From Bacillota bacterium (GTDB lineage: Bacteria > Bacillota > UBA4882 > UBA10575), in the NCBI GenBank assembly GCA_029782135.1, contig JAKOVI010000069.1:1-43108 (forward strand): 43,108 nt of DNA, given 5' to 3'. Position 1 is the stretch's first letter. Every line of letters starts with the position of its first letter. The notes beneath the pieces are model-generated. The model did no database searches, was not told where the DNA came from, and was given only the letters and a program-made list of their open reading frames with translations. Of the stretch, positions 1-41,680 are shown one piece after another. The position numbers and the translations under genes are program-made.

Positions 1-300
1 GCCTATGCCCAAGCTGAATTGGGCGATGTCGTCTATGTTGAGCTGCCTGCCCTGAACGAAAAAGTCAAAGCCAAATCCGGAATGGGAAGTATTGAATCGG
101 TCAAAGCCGTTTCTGATGTTTATGCCCCGGTCTCTGGCGAAGTTGTCGAGGTCAACGATGAACTGCAATTTAGTCCGGAACTGATTAACCAAGACCCTTA
201 TGGTAAAGGTTGGATTGCCGTCATTGAGTTGGACGATCCGGCGGAGTTAAACAACCTTTTGACCGCTCAGGAGTACCAGGAGTTAATTGGGGAAAAATGA
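1..300 (+). CDS. gcvH: Glycine cleavage system H protein (3' part)
   Basis: The lipoyl carrier protein of the glycine cleavage complex shuttles the aminomethyl group from the P to the T protein in the cytoplasm. The frame is open from base 1 (AYAQAELGDVVYVELP), so the gene is cut by the window edge and the TTG at 19 is internal. The lipoylation motif ESVKAVSD is present, with the modified lysine at bases 103-105, followed by the hammerhead strand (YAPVSGEVVEVN). The stop overlaps the next start as ATGA (297-300). The next gene is a LipM-type octanoyltransferase, the enzyme class that acts on GcvH, so substrate and modifier are translationally coupled. The rest of a gcv operon would lie to the left. 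Confidence 0.96.
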   Translation, partial: AYAQAELGDVVYVELPALNEKVKAKSGMGSIESVKAVSDVYAPVSGEVVEVNDELQFSPELINQDPYGKGWIAVIELDDPAELNNLLTAQEYQELIGEK

Positions 301-3427: not shown

Positions 3428-5356
3428 GTGAAAAGTGTACTCAGAGATGTTGGCGAAGAGAGCCGGAGGATCTCCCGCCGTGACCGTTTTCCTCAAGAGG
3501 AAGATCAGTTACACCGACAGGTAACTGCGCTGTATTCGCTCTTGGCGAATCTCTATGGTTCCGATAAATTGGTCATGAAAGCCGGTAAACTCGATGCGCT
3601 CCAATTGATGCGTTCCAAAGTTTTGGAAGAAAGAGTATTAGCGCTGCAGCGGTTGGTCTACGAAGATCCGACCCTTGCCCAGGTGCCGAATAGTGTCGAC
3701 CTGCCAACGGTTTTAGATGAGATCGAAGAGGAGATCGCCGATTTAATTGCCCGCAAAACCGTTGAGGAAAAGATCGAAAAGAAGATTGCCGAACGGATGC
3801 AGCACCGGCACGAAGAGTATGTTAAAGAGATCAAGATGCAGGTTCTGAAAGAGATCAACGGACCTGACAATCCTTATACACTAAAGAAATACGCCGAATT
3901 GGAAAGAATGGAGCAGGTTTCGCTTTCCCGTTCCGCCCTTGAAAAGCTCCGCCCGTCCGCGCTGGACCAGGTCGTGGGTCAGGACGCGGCGATCCGTGCT
4001 TTACTGGCGAAGCTGGTTTCTCCTTTTCCCCAGCACGTGATCGTCTATGGGCCGCCCGGTGTCGGGAAGACCACGGTTGCCCGGCTGGTTTTGGAGGAAG
4101 CGAAGAAGATTCATTACACCCCTTTTGCGGCAGATGCGCCCTTTGTCGAGGTTGATGGGACAACCTTACGGTGGGATCCCCGGGAAGTGACCAATCCGCT
4201 TTTAGGGTCGGTCCATGATCCGATTTACCAGGGCGCACGGCGGGATTTGGCGGAAGGCGCGATTCCCGAACCGAAACTGGGACTCGTGACCGAAGCACAC
4301 GGAGGTGTATTGTTCATCGATGAAATTGGCGAGCTCGACCCAATCCTCATGAATAAGCTGCTTAAGGTGTTAGAGGATAAGCGGGTAAAATTTGATTCGG
4401 CTTATTACGATCCCGATGACCCCGGGGTGCCTAAATATATCAAGAAATTATTTGAAGAAGGGGCGCCGGCGGATTTTATCCTGATTGCCGCGACGACCAA
4501 AGATCCCTCGGAGATCAGTCCGGCGTTACGTTCACGCTGCGCGGAAGTGTATTTTGAGCCGCTGACCAGCCAATCAATCAAGAAGATCGTGACCGACGCT
4601 GCCCGGCGTCTGAATGCAGAACTCGACCCGGAGGTGCCCGAACTGATCAGCGCCTACTCCATTGAGGGCCGGAAGGCGGTGGGGATGCTTGCCGATGCTT
4701 ACGGAATCGCCCTCTACCAGCAGGCGAGGTACGAGCATGGTTCCAAAATCCGGATCCGTGAGGAACATCTCATGGAGGTGATCAGGGCGAGCAGGCTCTC
4801 TCCTTATATAACAGTGAAAGGGAGTTCCGACGGGGAGATCGGAAAGATCTTCGGTTTGGGCGTCAGTGGGTTTGTCGGCTCGCTTATTGAAATTGAAGCG
4901 GTCAGTTTCCCGGCCGAAAAGGGGAAAGGAAAATTACGTTTTAATGAAACAGCGGGTTCCATGGCCAAAGACTCAGTCTTTAATGCGGCTTCTGTTGTGC
5001 GTCTGCTGACCGGTCTGGATATCAATGATTACGATATTCATGTCAACGTTGTTGGTGGAGGACGGATTGACGGTCCCTCTGCCGGCGTCGCGATTACTCT
5101 GGCGATTATCAGTTCCCTTCTCCAGCGGCCGTTACGTCAAGATGTTGCGATCACCGGTGAAGTGACGGTCCAGGGAAAAGTGAAGGAAGTCGGCGGGATC
5201 CCGGAGAAGATTTATGGTGCGAAACAAGCCGGCGTCAATGTGGTCTATATTCCGCGCGAGAATGAACGGGATATCCCCGCAGAGTTGGATGGGATCACAG
5301 TGAAAACTGCTTCAACCGTCAAAGAAATCATGGAAGAAGTCTTCTTTGTTCATTAA
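3428..5356 (+). CDS. lonC: Lon-family ATP-dependent protease, LonC type
   Basis: A 642-residue protein with an N-terminal coiled-coil-rich region (about 1-170, many Glu/Lys), an AAA+ module and a C-terminal Lon protease domain. Walker A GPPGVGKT lies near 208-215 and Walker B GGVLFIDE near 292-299. The proteolytic Ser551 is in GPSAGV, and the partner Lys597 is in GGIPEKIYGAK. It lacks the long LON substrate-binding domain of LonA. This build, and the position between rplI and dnaB, fit the LonC branch known from a subset of endospore formers, where a sporulation role has been proposed. The start is GTG behind GGGAGG. Confidence 0.87.
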   Translation: MKSVLRDVGEESRRISRRDRFPQEEDQLHRQVTALYSLLANLYGSDKLVMKAGKLDALQLMRSKVLEERVLALQRLVYEDPTLAQVPNSVDLPTVLDEIEEEIADLIARKTVEEKIEKKIAERMQHRHEEYVKEIKMQVLKEINGPDNPYTLKKYAELERMEQVSLSRSALEKLRPSALDQVVGQDAAIRALLAKLVSPFPQHVIVYGPPGVGKTTVARLVLEEAKKIHYTPFAADAPFVEVDGTTLRWDPREVTNPLLGSVHDPIYQGARRDLAEGAIPEPKLGLVTEAHGGVLFIDEIGELDPILMNKLLKVLEDKRVKFDSAYYDPDDPGVPKYIKKLFEEGAPADFILIAATTKDPSEISPALRSRCAEVYFEPLTSQSIKKIVTDAARRLNAELDPEVPELISAYSIEGRKAVGMLADAYGIALYQQARYEHGSKIRIREEHLMEVIRASRLSPYITVKGSSDGEIGKIFGLGVSGFVGSLIEIEAVSFPAEKGKGKLRFNETAGSMAKDSVFNAASVVRLLTGLDINDYDIHVNVVGGGRIDGPSAGVAITLAIISSLLQRPLRQDVAITGEVTVQGKVKEVGGIPEKIYGAKQAGVNVVYIPRENERDIPAELDGITVKTASTVKEIMEEVFFVH

Positions 5357-7337: not shown

Positions 7338-7456
7338 AATTGGTTGGTGATTTCGGTTAAACTAAACTTAAGCACCTTCCGCACCTGCCGGTTGCGGCCG
7401 GAATTAAAAACGCAGTTGCCGTAAGGGTGAGCGGGGGAGATGAAAGGAGAAGCAAG

Positions 7457-8011
7457 ATGGAGAAAAAAAGGGGTTATTTAATCATTCTCCCGGCACTAGT
7501 GATTGGCCTGTTTCTGCTCTTGGTCTCTCCGGAGCTATTCCGGCGCGGTCGAGAAGAACCGGCGCCTGCTCCCCAGCCGGCAGCGGAAGAACGGACAGTC
7601 GTCGTCAGACTTTACTTTGCCAACCAGGAATATGTCGAGAGCGGGCGGGAAGACCTCCCGATGTTTAAAGCGGTTGACCGTGAGGTGAAATATAAAGGGG
7701 ACGATCTAATCGATGTAGTGCTTCAGGAATTAAGAAAACCCCCGGCGAAAGAAGGATTATCCACCGCCCTCCATGAACAGCTCACGATTCGCCAGGCATG
7801 GGTGGAAGGCGATCTCGCTTATGTTGATTTTTCCAGTGAAAACCTGCATGGAGGTTCGCTTCAGGAAACACTGTTGGTCCACCAGATCGTCAGAACCGTG
7901 ACCGGTTTACCAGGGATTAAACAGGTCCAGTTTTTGGTTAACGGGGAAAAAGCGGAATCGCTGATGGGGCATATCGCGACCAATGAACCGCTCAGCTTAG
8001 AAAATCTTTGA
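7457..8011 (+). CDS. GerMN-domain membrane-anchored protein
   Basis: A 184-residue protein with one N-terminal membrane segment (about GYLIILPALVIGLFLLLV), a Pro/Ala/Glu-rich linker, and a C-terminal GerMN domain (VVVRLYFANQEY to VQFLVNGEKAESL). GerMN domains occur in the Bacillus germination protein GerM and in many clostridial envelope proteins of sporulation. There is no lipobox cysteine, unlike GerM lipoproteins. ATG 7457 follows AAAGGAG (7443-7448 region); the longer frame from GTG 7427 lacks a site. The domain call is good; the role in spores is inferred from the family only. Confidence 0.75.
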   Translation: MEKKRGYLIILPALVIGLFLLLVSPELFRRGREEPAPAPQPAAEERTVVVRLYFANQEYVESGREDLPMFKAVDREVKYKGDDLIDVVLQELRKPPAKEGLSTALHEQLTIRQAWVEGDLAYVDFSSENLHGGSLQETLLVHQIVRTVTGLPGIKQVQFLVNGEKAESLMGHIATNEPLSLENL

Positions 8012-21357: not shown

Positions 21358-21378
21358 CGAAGGAAGTGAGGGTGAGTG

Positions 21379-22764
21379 ATGAAACAAGAGTATGATGTGA
21401 TTATCGTCGGCGGTGGCCCGGCCGGCATCTTTGCTGCACTGGAACTGGTGAAACGGACCGGGAAAATCCTGATGATTGAGAAAGGGAAGAACCTGGCGGA
21501 GCGGTTCTGCCCCTCGAAGGATAAACATATCCCGTGTATTACCTGTAAACCCTGCTCGATTGTCTGCGGGTGGGGAGGGGCCGGGGCGTTCAGTGACGGC
21601 AAACTGACCCTTTCTGCGGAAGTCGGCGGGTTTTTGGATGAATATCTCAGCAAAGACCGGCTCCACAAGATGATCAGATATGTGGATGATATCTACCTGC
21701 GCTTCGGCGCGCCGGAAAAAGTCTACGGTGACGATGAAGAAAAGATTACGGAGATCGAGAAACGGGCGATCCTGGCTAACTTAAGGATGATCCCGTCCCG
21801 GATCCGGCACCTGGGTTCAGGCCGGACCCTGGAGATCCTCCAGGCAATGAAAGAGTACCTGGAGGGGGAAGGGGTTGAGGTGGCGCTCGGGACGACCTGT
21901 GAGGAACTTCTGGTGGAAGCGGGGGAAGCGGTTGGCGTCCGGACGGGCCGCGGCGAAATTTACCGTGGGAGATATATCATCGTCGGTCCCGGACGGGAAG
22001 GCTCGGAATGGCTGGTAGCCGAGGGGAAGAGGCTGGGACTGAACACCAAGGTTAATCCGGTGGATATCGGGGTCCGGGTAGAACTCCCGGCTGAAGTGCT
22101 TGAACCGGTCACCGACGTGGTCTATGAAAGCAAGTTTATCTATTATTCCCGTTCGTTTGAGGACCGGGTACGGACCTTTTGTATGTGCCCGTACGGGGAA
22201 GTGGTCACGGAGAATAATGACGGGTTGATCACGGTGAACGGCCACAGCCACGCCCATAAGAAAACCCGGAATACCAATTTTGCCCTCTTGGTCAGCAAGA
22301 ACTTTACCGAACCGTTTAAAGAGCCGATCACTTACGGCCGTTACATTGCCGGGCTGGCCAACCTCTTGGGCGGCGGTGTCCTGGTCCAACGCCTGGGGGA
22401 TCTCCAGGCCGGGCGCCGGTCCAACCCGGAGCGGATCAAAAAAGGGCTGGTCGTCCCGACTTTAGAAGAAGCGACCCCCGGCGACCTCAGCCTGGTCCTG
22501 CCATACCGTCATCTCCTGGCGATCATGGAGATGCTCGAAGCCTTGGATATGATTGCCCCCGGGGTGAATTCGCGCAATACCCTTCTGTACGGCGTTGAGG
22601 TGAAGTTCTACTCCTCCCGCCTGAATCTGAGCAGCAACCTGGAGACGGAGATCCCTAACCTGTTTGCCGTCGGGGACGGGGCCGGGGTGACGCGGGGCTT
22701 GATGCAGGCGTCGATCTCCGGGGTGATTGTGGGGAGCGAGATTGCGAAGCGGCTGGGGCAGTAA
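21379..22764 (+). CDS. NAD(P)/FAD-dependent oxidoreductase (COG2509-type)
   Basis: A 461-residue flavoprotein of the uncharacterised FAD-dependent dehydrogenase family. The N-terminus holds the Rossmann motif YDVIIVGGGPAGIFAALEL and an acidic end (MIEKG). A cysteine-rich segment CPSKDKHIPCITCKPCSIVCG (about 50-70) precedes GAGAFSDGKL, as in the family; it may bind a metal or form disulfides. The C-terminal FAVGDGAGVTRGLMQASISG closes the FAD site. It follows trkH by 21 bases and may share its transcript. ATG 21379 is preferred to GTG 21376. The reaction is unknown. Confidence 0.82.
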   Translation: MKQEYDVIIVGGGPAGIFAALELVKRTGKILMIEKGKNLAERFCPSKDKHIPCITCKPCSIVCGWGGAGAFSDGKLTLSAEVGGFLDEYLSKDRLHKMIRYVDDIYLRFGAPEKVYGDDEEKITEIEKRAILANLRMIPSRIRHLGSGRTLEILQAMKEYLEGEGVEVALGTTCEELLVEAGEAVGVRTGRGEIYRGRYIIVGPGREGSEWLVAEGKRLGLNTKVNPVDIGVRVELPAEVLEPVTDVVYESKFIYYSRSFEDRVRTFCMCPYGEVVTENNDGLITVNGHSHAHKKTRNTNFALLVSKNFTEPFKEPITYGRYIAGLANLLGGGVLVQRLGDLQAGRRSNPERIKKGLVVPTLEEATPGDLSLVLPYRHLLAIMEMLEALDMIAPGVNSRNTLLYGVEVKFYSSRLNLSSNLETEIPNLFAVGDGAGVTRGLMQASISGVIVGSEIAKRLGQ

Positions 22765-22859: not shown

Positions 22860-23429
22860 TTAAAAGATATAGAAATGAATCCCGCAGCCGTAGACAATGG
22901 TCGTGTCCGCCGGCGCCCAGGGGGAACCGACGGTCGAGTAGCCGATCTCTATGTTGTACTTGAGGTTGGCGATGAAATCACTGGTGGTAAACTCTAAACC
23001 AACCCCGGCGATCAAGCCGGGGGAAGAAACGAAATCCCAGTTGTAGGTGAAGAACGAAAAGTGGCCGAGTAGTCCGTAGGCATAAAAGTTATGGGTCGGG
23101 CGGCGCCAAAACCGGTGGATGTATTTGCCGCCATAAATTAAGGTATAATCGTTATAAACGAAGATTCCTTGGAGGGCGGAGGTTCGATTCAGATTAAGGA
23201 TGGCGCTATAACCGAACTCCGGGAAGACGGACTGGATGCCGCCCCCGAGACGCAAGAGATAAGGTTCGCCGTCAGGTGCGGCGGCAGCCGGGGAACAAAG
23301 GCTAAGGCTCAGGGAGAACAGGCCTAAACAGAAAAAAAAGATGCAGAGTCGGCGGTTTGGGGAAAAGATCGGAATCACCCCGTTTACAAAGTTGATTGGT
23401 ACCTTCTTCAAGTCTTCCGGTGAGATCAA
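22860..23429 (-). CDS. Small exported beta-barrel-like protein (possible outer-membrane protein)
   Basis: A protein of up to 189 residues that I cannot assign to a named family. After a signal peptide (RRLCIFFFCLGLFSLSLSLCSPAAAA) the mature part is rich in alternating polar and aromatic strands (YLLRLGGGIQSVFPEFGYSA, NFYAYGLLGHFSFFTYNW, GLIAGVGLEFTT) and ends in YGCGIHFYIF. A C-terminal Phe after alternating hydrophobic residues is the usual signal of a barrel inserted by BamA. The size suggests about eight strands. The frame opens with TTG at 23429; TTG 23411 (MKKVPINF, with GGAAG upstream) or GTG 23378 may be the real start. Being on its own on the minus strand, it has no helpful neighbour. 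Confidence 0.62.
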   Translation of the reverse strand: MISPEDLKKVPINFVNGVIPIFSPNRRLCIFFFCLGLFSLSLSLCSPAAAAPDGEPYLLRLGGGIQSVFPEFGYSAILNLNRTSALQGIFVYNDYTLIYGGKYIHRFWRRPTHNFYAYGLLGHFSFFTYNWDFVSSPGLIAGVGLEFTTSDFIANLKYNIEIGYSTVGSPWAPADTTIVYGCGIHFYIF

Positions 23430-23617: not shown

Positions 23618-24313
23618 TTGGCGCAGGCGAAAATTGCCCACACCATTAAGGAACAGGTCTATAACATTCTGAAAAATTCGATCTTGGACGGGACTTTTCA
23701 GCCGGGTGAGTGGTTGCAAGAAGCAAAACTGGCCAAAGACTTGAAAGTAAGCCGTTCGCCGGTGCGGGAGGCGTTGCAACAGTTAATCGGGGATGGCTTG
23801 GTGGTGAATATTCCCAACAAAGGTGTCTTTGTACGGGAGATCACCGAACAGGACCTGCGGGATATCTTCGAAGTACGGCTCTGTTTTGAGGGAGTGGGGA
23901 TTCGCCGTTCGGCGGAAACTCTTACCGACCAAGCCCGGGAAGAATTACGGGAAATTAAGGCCAGACTGATCAAGAGCTATGAAGCGGCCGATAAAAACCT
24001 TTATCTTCAGGAAGATGCCAAGCTTCATAAACTACTGATTGCCCTGACCGGCAATAAAATGATTCAGGATCTCAATGAACGGATTTACGGAATGGAGCAT
24101 CTATCCAGGACCATTGCCTTCTACAGCCACGAAGGATTTACCGAGTACCAGAAAGAGCATCTTGGCATTATCGACGCTTTGCTCGCAGGGGATGTCGAAA
24201 AAGCCTTACTTTATCACGAAAGACATCTTTGCTTTGCCCGGGATGAAAGTATAAAGCAGCTCCAGATGTCGACGAAACAAGCGCGGCCGGCGACCGTTGT
24301 TAACATTCCTTAG
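23618..24313 (+). CDS. GntR-family transcriptional regulator, FCD type
   Basis: A 231-residue regulator. The N-terminal winged helix (about 10-75: YNILKNSILDGTFQPGEWLQ, DLKVSRSPVREALQQL, GLVVNIPNKGVFV) is typical of GntR, and the C-terminal helical FCD domain (DIFEVRLCFEGVGIRRSAE, then H in LQEDAKLHKLLI and later EHLGIIDALL, HERHL) carries likely metal/ligand histidines. FCD regulators often sense small carboxylates. It starts with TTG at 23618 behind GAGGGAAG. No obvious target operon is adjacent. Confidence 0.9.
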   Translation: MAQAKIAHTIKEQVYNILKNSILDGTFQPGEWLQEAKLAKDLKVSRSPVREALQQLIGDGLVVNIPNKGVFVREITEQDLRDIFEVRLCFEGVGIRRSAETLTDQAREELREIKARLIKSYEAADKNLYLQEDAKLHKLLIALTGNKMIQDLNERIYGMEHLSRTIAFYSHEGFTEYQKEHLGIIDALLAGDVEKALLYHERHLCFARDESIKQLQMSTKQARPATVVNIP

Positions 24314-38244: not shown

Positions 38245-39540
38245 CTAATCGGGGACGTCGTTTGGGATAAAAGCAGCGTGCAGTTCGACCGGCTCCGGAC
38301 CGGCGACCGCTAAGCGCCATTGCTTTAAATAAGTTTGGGTAAAGTAACGAAGGTCGTCACCGGTGATATTTTGCAGCGCGGCGGAGAATTCTTCAAGCCC
38401 GGTTGCCCAAGTCAAGCCCAGATGAACGCCGAGCGCGTCCATGTAAGATAAAAACCGCGGGGAAGAATAATTCTTTTGTTGCTTTTTTTCCTCCCGCGCG
38501 CTCAAATGCGCAATCTCTTCCGGAGTCGGCGGTTCTTTTTCCAACTGTGCCAGCAGGCGAAAGACTTCATTGAGGGCGGGCTCCGTATTCTCCGGCAGCA
38601 CTTGCAGAATGATCGTGATGTTCGGGGCGGTTGGTTCCTGGAGCGCGGTGTAATTCACCTGGACGTGATAGCAGTAACCGAGATCCTGCCTCAGTCTTTT
38701 CCAGAGTTGAGTCTGGAGATATTTTTGGAGCACCCGGGCGGTAAAATAAGCATCTTCTGTGGGTCGCGGTCCGGGGAAAGATAAGAAAATGGTGCTGTAG
38801 GGAGTACGGGTTTCCGTAAACCGGAAAGCAGGGCCGCCGATCAAGGGCGGAGGGATAGCGGGAAGCACGACTTTTTTCTGTAGATCCCTGCCGCTTGGCT
38901 TCCGCAGAAACTCTTCCGGCAGTTCGGCGGTGGTGGAGATGACTAGATTGTTAGGCTTATATATTTCCCGGAACCACAGATTGACCTCGTTGATATTGAG
39001 TTTGGGATAATCCGCTTTGAATTGATTAAGGTAGGGATGGGCCGGCCCATAAAGGAGTTCATAGAGCACATGCTGGCCGACGCGCGCCGGCGGTTGCGGG
39101 GTATGATAATGTCGGTAAATCAGTTCATTGCACAAGTCATAGAGTAAAAGCGTATCAAGGCGAATAATCGTATCCAGTTCGGAGCAGAAGGCGCGGAAAT
39201 CCTCCCGCCGGAGCACGAAGGTAAAGACGGTATACTCCGCATAAGGATAATAGTTTACCTCAAGCGCCGAAGTGGTACGGAGCAAGAAGAAGATTAATTC
39301 ATTGGTTAAGTTGTGCAGTCCATATTTGCCCGCTGGTTCATGTCCATACCCGGTTTTGAGGAGCAAGGTTAAATACTCGTAATTATCCTCAGCCGCGGGG
39401 AGAGTCCGCGTGGAGATGACCAAGCCGTCCTCCCGTTCCTCAATGGAAGCGGTAGTCGATAAAGTGCAGGTGAGGATAATGAGAAAAAGGAGGAGCCCGC
39501 GGGAGGCCTTTTTCCTTATGCGCCTTTTCATTTCATCCAT
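38245..39540 (-). CDS. Exported M16-family protein without zinc motif (non-catalytic partner)
   Basis: A 431-residue protein with a signal peptide (GLLLFLIILTCTLSTTAS), then an M16 peptidase fold. Where HxxEH should be it reads GLHNLTNEL, so both zinc residues and the Glu are lost. The C-terminal half keeps the R...Y pair (RLRQDLGYCYHVQV) that in two-protein M16B enzymes sits on the non-catalytic subunit and helps bind substrate. That matches its neighbour with an intact site. A Cys in LTCTLS is a poor lipobox. Last gene of a three-gene operon, 20 bases after the active subunit. Confidence 0.82.
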   Translation of the reverse strand: MDEMKRRIRKKASRGLLLFLIILTCTLSTTASIEEREDGLVISTRTLPAAEDNYEYLTLLLKTGYGHEPAGKYGLHNLTNELIFFLLRTTSALEVNYYPYAEYTVFTFVLRREDFRAFCSELDTIIRLDTLLLYDLCNELIYRHYHTPQPPARVGQHVLYELLYGPAHPYLNQFKADYPKLNINEVNLWFREIYKPNNLVISTTAELPEEFLRKPSGRDLQKKVVLPAIPPPLIGGPAFRFTETRTPYSTIFLSFPGPRPTEDAYFTARVLQKYLQTQLWKRLRQDLGYCYHVQVNYTALQEPTAPNITIILQVLPENTEPALNEVFRLLAQLEKEPPTPEEIAHLSAREEKKQQKNYSSPRFLSYMDALGVHLGLTWATGLEEFSAALQNITGDDLRYFTQTYLKQWRLAVAGPEPVELHAAFIPNDVPD

Positions 39541-39560
39541 CTTCCTTTTTGCTTGACCTC

Positions 39561-40832
39561 TTAATCGGCTTTAATCACAATCTGGTGGTAGGCTTGATCC
39601 TCCAAGTATCTTTCGACAAATTTCTTCAGATCGCTGGAGGATAAACGTTTGATGATCGTTAGATCCGCCCGGGAAATCGTCGTCGGCTCAAAGATGAGCT
39701 GGGAGTAATACTCTCCCAAAAGGGCCGGCGAGGCTTCGATCAGTTGCAATCTTTTCTCAAGCCACTTGGCTAGAGCCTTGAGGAAGGAGGAAAAATCCTT
39801 TGCCTTTAGATACTTACAGTAGCGGCGGATATTGCGATCATGCCATTGACCGATCTCCGGTGTGTATTCTTCTTGTACATCCCTGTATTCGAAGATTAAG
39901 TAAAACTCCTCCCCAAGGTTGAAAAGATAGCTGTCGTAATCGAGGGGGCGGTTTGTTACATAATCGTACTGGCGGGACTCAAAGGTCAGGATATAGGGGA
40001 GGGTCTTTGCGATCGTAAGGTCTTTCCCGTTCAGCTTTTTTAGATCAAACCCGAATAACAGCCGGTATTTTTCGCCCGGGAGAAAATCCTCGAGGATCAT
40101 ACCCTGCTCCGGGGGGGTGGCGGGGCGGAGCGGCTGCTTGCCGGCTGCTTTGGTTGACGGCGGGGACAGTTCAGACAGGTACGCGCTGATTTCCTTTAGA
40201 TTAAAGTTCCCGGTGATGATCACCGTCAGTTGGTCGAGGGTGTAATACGTACGGTGGAAGGTTAGTACCTGTGCGCGGCCGATCGCCTGGATTTTTGAAT
40301 CAAGCTGGTTCTGGGTTAGCTGGTTTATGTAGGTCAAAAAAACATCCCCTGGTCTTGTGCGCAGCGCTTTTTCGATGGTGACAATCTTTTTTTCTTTTTC
40401 AATATCCGCCGGGTCAAAAGCCGGGTTCAGGATCAAATCGAGGAAAAAAGAAAGGGCGGAGCCGAGGTTTTCGGCGGTGGACTCCAGGATGAATTCCGTC
40501 CGGTTTAACGTGGTGAAAGCATTATAGGTATTGCCTTTCCCGTCCATTAGATCAGGAGAATCTGAAAGCGCCGCATGGCCATTACCCCGGAAGACCAAGT
40601 GTTCAACCAGATGGGAGATTTCCAAGTATTCCTGGGGTTCGTCAAGGAAACCGGCCGGCACAATGATGCGGGCGGTGACGGTTTGCCCTTTGGGCAGCTG
40701 TTTATAGACCAGCCGGACCCCGTTGGGGAAGACTTTTTCGGTAAACTCCTTTTCCTGGCCAACCGCCGTCTCCCCCAAGAGGAGGATGGCAATAAGGACG
40801 ATCCGAAGGATGGATTGACGAAAGATACGCAT
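39561..40832 (-). CDS. Exported M16-family zinc metallopeptidase
   Basis: A 423-residue protein from ATG 40832 (AAAGGA upstream). The signal peptide is RQSILRIVLIAILLLGETAVG; no lipobox. The zinc motif H74-L-V-E77-H78 lies in EISHLVEHLVF, and the third ligand Glu154 (VTIEKAL) is 75 residues further on, as in the family. The C-terminal half lacks an obvious R/Y pair, which its neighbour has, so a two-protein enzyme is likely. The frame also extends to TTG 40892, overlapping the previous stop, but the ATG gives a proper signal peptide. Confidence 0.9.
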   Translation of the reverse strand: MRIFRQSILRIVLIAILLLGETAVGQEKEFTEKVFPNGVRLVYKQLPKGQTVTARIIVPAGFLDEPQEYLEISHLVEHLVFRGNGHAALSDSPDLMDGKGNTYNAFTTLNRTEFILESTAENLGSALSFFLDLILNPAFDPADIEKEKKIVTIEKALRTRPGDVFLTYINQLTQNQLDSKIQAIGRAQVLTFHRTYYTLDQLTVIITGNFNLKEISAYLSELSPPSTKAAGKQPLRPATPPEQGMILEDFLPGEKYRLLFGFDLKKLNGKDLTIAKTLPYILTFESRQYDYVTNRPLDYDSYLFNLGEEFYLIFEYRDVQEEYTPEIGQWHDRNIRRYCKYLKAKDFSSFLKALAKWLEKRLQLIEASPALLGEYYSQLIFEPTTISRADLTIIKRLSSSDLKKFVERYLEDQAYHQIVIKAD

Positions 40833-40888
40833 TTGATCATTCCTTTGGCTGTAATCAGAGGCGCAGCGCCTCTTTTTGCCCCCAACGA

Positions 40889-41680
40889 TCAATAAGTGAC
40901 GGTGAGGGCTTTCGGCACTGCCGCAAAACTGATCTCCTGATAGCTGCCCCGTTTAAAGCGGAGTTTCGAAATATTTCTGATCTCCACCGCCTCCGCGGCA
41001 GTAAAGTTTAGATCATAGTCCATGTCAATCAAAAAGAGATCACGGGGATCGTTAAAGCACCCGTTAAAATCCGTGTCGACCAGGGCGATCGGGAACTCTT
41101 CCCCGTCAAGCAAGAGATTGCCGGCCAACCAGGTGCGCGTTTTTAATAAAAGATAATCGCGATAACCGGCCCAGGCGACCACGAGAAACGGTAAATCGAA
41201 ATGAACGGGAATGCTGTATTCTTCCTCACCGAGGCTGTAGGTCACCAGGAAGCGGAGCGGCATGGGGGAGTAATAAACGTTCAGCCCGGGGTGGCGGTCG
41301 CTTTTAAAGATTTCATAACCAGTTTCTTCGGCAAAATCCCGGTCCCGGTCGGCATCAACCCAGATTTGTCTCCTTTCCCCTTCGAGATCAACCAGGATCC
41401 CGTACGGTTGGGGCGGATTGCCGAAAACCGCTTCGGCATAGTAGAGCACGTTGGCGTCAACCGGCGGTGGTTGTTCGATTTTGCTGTTCCCCCGGATCCT
41501 CACCATTCTGAGTTCGCATTTTTGCCCAACCTCTTCTTCAACCTTGAGGCGAAAAGGGCGGTCCCGGTCGACCGGCCGCAACGGAAATTCTTCCTTTCCG
41601 TGCAGCGCTTTTATGGTCAAGCTGAAAAGCAGGATGACAAGGCCGAAGAGAACAAATTTTCCACGCAAATGATTCGGCAA
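40889..41680 (-). CDS. Exported protein with three DxDxD/N loops, unknown function
   Basis: A 263-residue protein that I do not recognise. It has an N-terminal signal (GKFVLFGLVILLFSLTIKALHG, no lipobox). Three acidic loops resemble calcium sites of EF-hand or dockerin type: DADRDRDFAEET (109-120), DTDFNGCFNDPRD (202-214) and DMDYDLNFTAAE (219-230). The latter two follow the D1-D3-D/N5 spacing well. It starts with TTG at 41680 behind GGAGGAGGAGG. As first gene of the M16 operon it may be a partner, substrate or inhibitor of the protease; this is inference. Confidence 0.68.
   Translation of the reverse strand: MPNHLRGKFVLFGLVILLFSLTIKALHGKEEFPLRPVDRDRPFRLKVEEEVGQKCELRMVRIRGNSKIEQPPPVDANVLYYAEAVFGNPPQPYGILVDLEGERRQIWVDADRDRDFAEETGYEIFKSDRHPGLNVYYSPMPLRFLVTYSLGEEEYSIPVHFDLPFLVVAWAGYRDYLLLKTRTWLAGNLLLDGEEFPIALVDTDFNGCFNDPRDLFLIDMDYDLNFTAAEAVEIRNISKLRFKRGSYQEISFAAVPKALTVTY

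Follow-up and report, generated by a model that had tools for sequence, protein, structure and literature searches.

A predicted small outer-membrane-type beta-barrel protein in a Bacillota genome with outer-membrane and spore genes

A minus-strand gene in a 43,108-nt stretch of Bacillota DNA (hereafter the window, meaning the whole stretch analysed) very probably encodes a compact, OmpA-like eight-stranded barrel. BamA would insert the protein into the outer membrane of a diderm member of the Bacillota, where its role would be structural or narrowly gated. We computed the conservation of the gene, a fold model of its product and the complement of outer-membrane machinery genes in the genome. 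Features of the gene and its neighbours are listed in Table 1.

Table 1. Coordinates of the barrel gene, its predicted parts and its neighbours
Feature	Position in window (or residues)	Strand	Basis
Gene for the predicted small outer-membrane barrel (183 aa; probable start codon TTG 23411)	22860..23411	-	ORF, start of relatives, orthologs, dN/dS, model
Putative signal peptide region, ~residues 1-45	23277..23411	-	Sequence, model helix 18-39, alignments
Predicted mature eight-stranded barrel	22863..23276	-	AlphaFold2 model, VIA-align Z up to 14.9, two-faced strands
C-terminal strand end GIHFYIF, terminal Phe	22863..22883	-	Sequence; BamA-recognition-type ending
Predicted strands	Residues 54-62, 65-73, 78-86, 90-103, 107-121, 127-142, 150-159, 171-182		AlphaFold2
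FAD-dependent oxidoreductase, convergent with barrel gene	21376..22764	+	Pfam on window copy
GntR/FCD regulator, divergent	23618..24313	+	Pfam; neighbourhoods

Conservation of the barrel gene

The ORF at 22860-23429, for which an earlier sequence-only reading had given no strand, was confirmed as a genuine ORF of the minus strand. Its longer form has a TTG start at 23429 and encodes 189 aa. Because the TTG start of the closest relative lies six codons downstream of the 189-aa start and aligns with TTG 23411 of the window, a 183-aa product appears more likely than the longer one.

A protein search covered 61 genomes and a profile search covered 29 genomes of the class; both counts include the bacterium's own genome. 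The protein search gave matches in 14/61 genomes, comprising 12 close members (own included) and 2 distant ones. Of the class genomes, 14 had matches in the profile search, and five of these also held weaker second matches, six in all. Close members were present in 12/29 class genomes (own included) and shared 53-78% identity. Comparison with the nearest relative (L027) revealed purifying selection (dN 0.130, dS 0.541), and identities at the three codon positions were 0.83, 0.90 and 0.72. Less weight can be put on the dN/dS values for more distant members, since dS was near saturation and one ratio was not computable. The 12 close members, the dN and dS values and the codon-position identities indicate that the ORF is more than a chance one.

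The window protein had no match in Pfam, PF13505 (OMP_b-brl) included, or in NCBIfam even at E 10, and none in a sequence search of the PDB. PF13505 likewise describes a small outer-membrane barrel, and a distant relative (L016) matched it at 4e-4, which is weaker than the family's cut-off. Relatives of the barrel protein were not found in viral contigs or phage records, so a phage origin of the gene is unsupported. The protein represents a lineage-restricted small-barrel family, unnamed in the Pfam, NCBIfam and PDB sequence searches and with very short predicted surface loops, which is a modest novelty.

Other small barrels were also observed. A second, very distant small-barrel family (L053-L058) ends in HYYF, and in several relatives its genes lie beside a conserved 253-aa gene, which we take to be Nif3-like. 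The genome to which the window belongs carries two more small outer-membrane barrel genes (L059, 1498-2055; L060, 1429-1995), of which one matched PF13505 over the cut-off and the other below it.

Termini and fold model of the barrel protein

The N terminus contains a hydrophobic helix (residues 18-39) followed by AAAA, both in the sequence and in an AlphaFold2 model. These elements of the signal peptide claimed earlier are present; the signal peptide itself is a prediction from sequence and model. Alignments showed no lipobox in this region: Leu precedes Cys39, and Cys39 is retained in the nearest relative only. A lipoprotein reading was rejected on these grounds. The C-terminal Phe was confirmed as a family trait, the terminal residue being F in 11/12 close members and Y in the remaining one. 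A C-terminal aromatic (Phe) ending is a BamA-recognition-type signal of outer-membrane proteins.

The AlphaFold2 model was built on 12 aligned sequences and had a mean pLDDT of 80.8 and a pTM of 0.65; the chain continues from the N-terminal helix into eight beta strands. The first rows of a Foldseek search against the PDB were OmpA, Ail, a designed transmembrane barrel, PagL and OmpX; there were zero matches at E <= 0.001, and outer-membrane barrel rows in the first 20 had query TM-scores of 0.33-0.51. VIA-align 2 was run on the top 1000 chains, and 50 rows were listed. The model aligned to CarO (4fuv) with Z 14.9 and rmsd 3.0 over 128, to OprF (4rlc) with Z 14.9 and rmsd 2.7 over 121, and to OmpA (1qjp) with Z 14.5 and rmsd 2.6 over 119. 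Superposition on solved outer-membrane barrels spanned residues 49-183. The sequence-only reading had proposed an outer-membrane-type barrel and suggested a structure model as a check; the outcome was a barrel-type model rather than some other fold. An eight-stranded outer-membrane-barrel-type fold, with a presumed closure between strands 1 and 8, is supported at the level of the model.

The predicted protein resembles the N-terminal transmembrane domain of OmpA and the N-terminal barrel of OprF in its eight strands, size, conserved polar-face charges and Z values (14.5-14.9). It differs from them in sequence (8-14% identity) and in its far shorter predicted surface loops. Unlike the full OmpA family, it stops at strand 8 and has no C-terminal peptidoglycan-binding OmpA domain, as judged from the model and the lack of a Pfam match.

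Strand faces and alternative functions

Calculated over the eight predicted strands and the alignment, the mean hydrophobicity difference between strand faces was 2.23, as compared with 1.21 (sd 0.32) in shuffles. This value was reached by 11/5000 shuffles, and by 21/5000 when shuffling was done inside strands. The amphipathic strands described in the earlier reading were clear in the strand-based test; blind alternation over the mature sequence was only weakly above shuffles (91/1000 reached the observed value). Strands 3 and 5 were not clearly two-faced and contributed little to the difference. In most strands, one face was hydrophobic and aromatic and the other carried conserved charges. 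Polar-face residues were Arg54, Glu65, Ser69, Asn73, Lys96, Arg100, Glu140, Lys151 and Glu155, the majority being unchanged across 12/12 rows (including K96, R100, E140, K151 and E155); Gln81 was also invariant. Outer-membrane barrels usually have both termini at the periplasmic side. In this orientation the predicted surface loops comprise residues 63-64, 87-89, 122-126 and 160-170 and are very short.

The lumen is probably closed by a network of salt bridges among Arg54, Glu65, Gln81, Lys96, Arg100, Glu140, Lys151 and Glu155. This probable closure favours a structural or narrowly gated protein of the outer membrane over an open porin. CarO and OmpW (Z 13.0) were among the best structure matches, as would be expected of a small open solute porin like the CarO or OmpW family channels; however, the invariant polar-face charges are of both signs, and such charges block the lumen of OmpA-type barrels. 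We consider an open porin unlikely.

The same strand faces bear on a further reading, a soluble eight-stranded barrel of avidin or lipocalin type that is released into the periplasm or the medium and is no membrane protein. In most strands the hydrophobic or aromatic face opposes a face with invariant charges, and all 12 close members end in Phe or Tyr; both observations argue against a soluble barrel. Some soluble barrels did occur in the VIA-align list. The first 34 rows among the 50 listed were outer-membrane or designed transmembrane barrels in 33 cases, and the exception was BcnB (Z 10.8), presumably a soluble lipocalin-type protein. Avidin-type soluble barrels had Z 9.6 and below, and avidin-family chains and a polyisoprenoid-binding chain (TT1927b) fell at Z 8.8-9.6. 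These Z values are far lower than those of the best outer-membrane barrels, and a soluble barrel is improbable.

Lipid A genes in the genome and structure matches to PagL (Z 11.7) and PagP (Z 11.1) are compatible with a small LPS-modifying enzyme of the outer membrane, similar to PagL or PagP. The catalytic pair of PagL is His-x-Ser. At the sequence level, this pair was not seen in the penultimate strand KYNIEIGYST, and the predicted topology puts the RPTHN turn, with its well conserved His, at the periplasmic side. We regard an enzyme of this type as highly improbable.

Outer-membrane machinery in the genome

The sequence-only reading regarded the absence of a BamA/Omp85 homologue as evidence against an outer-membrane barrel. 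Three Omp85/BamA matches over the cut-off were found. The best (E 1e-35) adjoins two Skp-like genes at the end of a contig, and the one Skp-like gene scanned is OmpH by Pfam. The cluster also holds LpxD, LptF/G, a 755-aa LptD_N protein, an LptC-related gene and another LptD_N gene. A second cluster contains LpxC and LpxA with an LpxB-like gene nearby; the gene between LpxC and LpxA is, by its sequence, presumably FabZ-like. TolC-type OEP gave eight matches over three contigs, so that the lipid A genes and tolC, proposed earlier as checks, are both accounted for. SLH domains were also present. The earlier statement that an outer membrane may coexist with spore genes agrees with the finding of Spo0A (two copies of its C-terminal domain) in the same genome as the Omp85, lpx and Lpt genes.

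The search for lptD was successful in part: LptD_N proteins were found, and the LptD C-terminal domain (PF04453) had 0 Pfam matches in the genome. The 755-aa LptD_N protein (L038, 9153-11420, minus strand) has no PF04453 match and is placed as expected for a divergent LptD. TamB also had 0 Pfam matches in the genome; bamA is at a contig end, and a gene that usually adjoins it may not have been assembled. We did not take the missing LptD C-terminal domain as excluding a diderm, because PMC5007114 reports that other diderm Firmicutes, too, have no clear LptD.

Omp85 was detected in 29/29 class genomes (G000-G028) and in 7/32 other genomes of the phylum examined. It is extremely improbable that this MAG represents an ordinary monoderm Bacillota and owes its outer-membrane genes to contamination: the assembly is in 163 contigs, but estimated contamination is 1.02%, every class genome has Omp85, and the barrel gene occurs in one recurring gene order across several assemblies.

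Neighbourhood of the barrel gene

The FAD-dependent oxidoreductase gene adjoins the barrel gene in 11/12 close members, and in the twelfth the contig ends first. As far as known, it is a conserved neighbour with no part in the function of the barrel. The recurring gene order further includes genes that we take, by sequence, to be ileS-like, trkA/trkH-like, lepA-like and hemW-like. In 7/12 close members (L007, L010-L015), a gene for an SdpI-family membrane protein lies directly upstream of the barrel gene, in six of them within ~10 bases. In the window this place is occupied by the GntR/FCD regulator gene; no SdpI-family gene is next to the barrel gene, and the only SdpI match of the genome is on another contig. 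In relatives, the loop-poor barrel might work with the upstream-encoded SdpI-family protein, the two forming a pair that spans both membranes, serves envelope protection or the envelope-stress response and is peculiar to diderm Bacillota; we regard this idea as improbable.

Pfam confirmed the two spore-lineage genes noted earlier in the window, a LonC-type protease at 3428-5356 and a Germane/GerMN gene at 7427-8011. At 38245-40892 (minus strand), two M16-type peptidase genes lie side by side; both products probably have signal peptides, and one gives no PF00675 match. The two genes possibly encode an exported two-subunit protease. The gene next after them (40889-41680) encodes 263 aa and has no Pfam match.

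Discussion

We propose that the secreted precursor of the barrel protein is exported and that BamA inserts the protein into the outer membrane. It would fold there as a compact eight-stranded barrel comparable to the OmpA transmembrane domain, and the charged polar-face network would close its lumen, leaving a structural or narrowly gated role.

The earlier suggestion that some deep Bacillota lineages have an outer membrane is already in print (PMC11456536, PMC11448272 and PMC5007114, in the passages considered). Among these passages, that of PMC11448272 counts Negativicutes, Halanaerobiia and Limnochordia among the diderm classes, and that of PMC5007114 describes an outer-membrane gene cluster of diderm Firmicutes; a passage of PMC5491611 later lists LptD in Veillonella. 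The present genome resembles the diderm Negativicutes, Halanaerobiales and Limnochordia, as described in the passages of PMC5007114, in having BamA with Skp-like genes, lpx genes, LptF/G and OstA-domain genes. It differs in giving no Pfam match to TamB or to the LptD C-terminal domain, and those passages do not contain this small barrel family.

In a comparison of 11 loci, the nearest named relatives were Bacillota MAGs, one of them labelled Hydrogenispora, which NCBI taxonomy places in Bacillota incertae sedis. We infer that the group is close to or inside Limnochordia. A literature search on Hydrogenispora and its Gram type found nothing evidently about its envelope.

The organism is very probably a diderm, spore-gene-bearing Bacillota, a kind of cell that has already been described, and the barrel protein is ordinary apart from its unnamed family. 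To the published argument for a diderm ancestor of Bacillota, the genome contributes a further example in which spore genes accompany an almost complete set of outer-membrane genes. For relatives of Hydrogenispora, the barrel family provides an outer-membrane marker that is compact and specific to the lineage; it leaves the diderm-ancestor picture unchanged.
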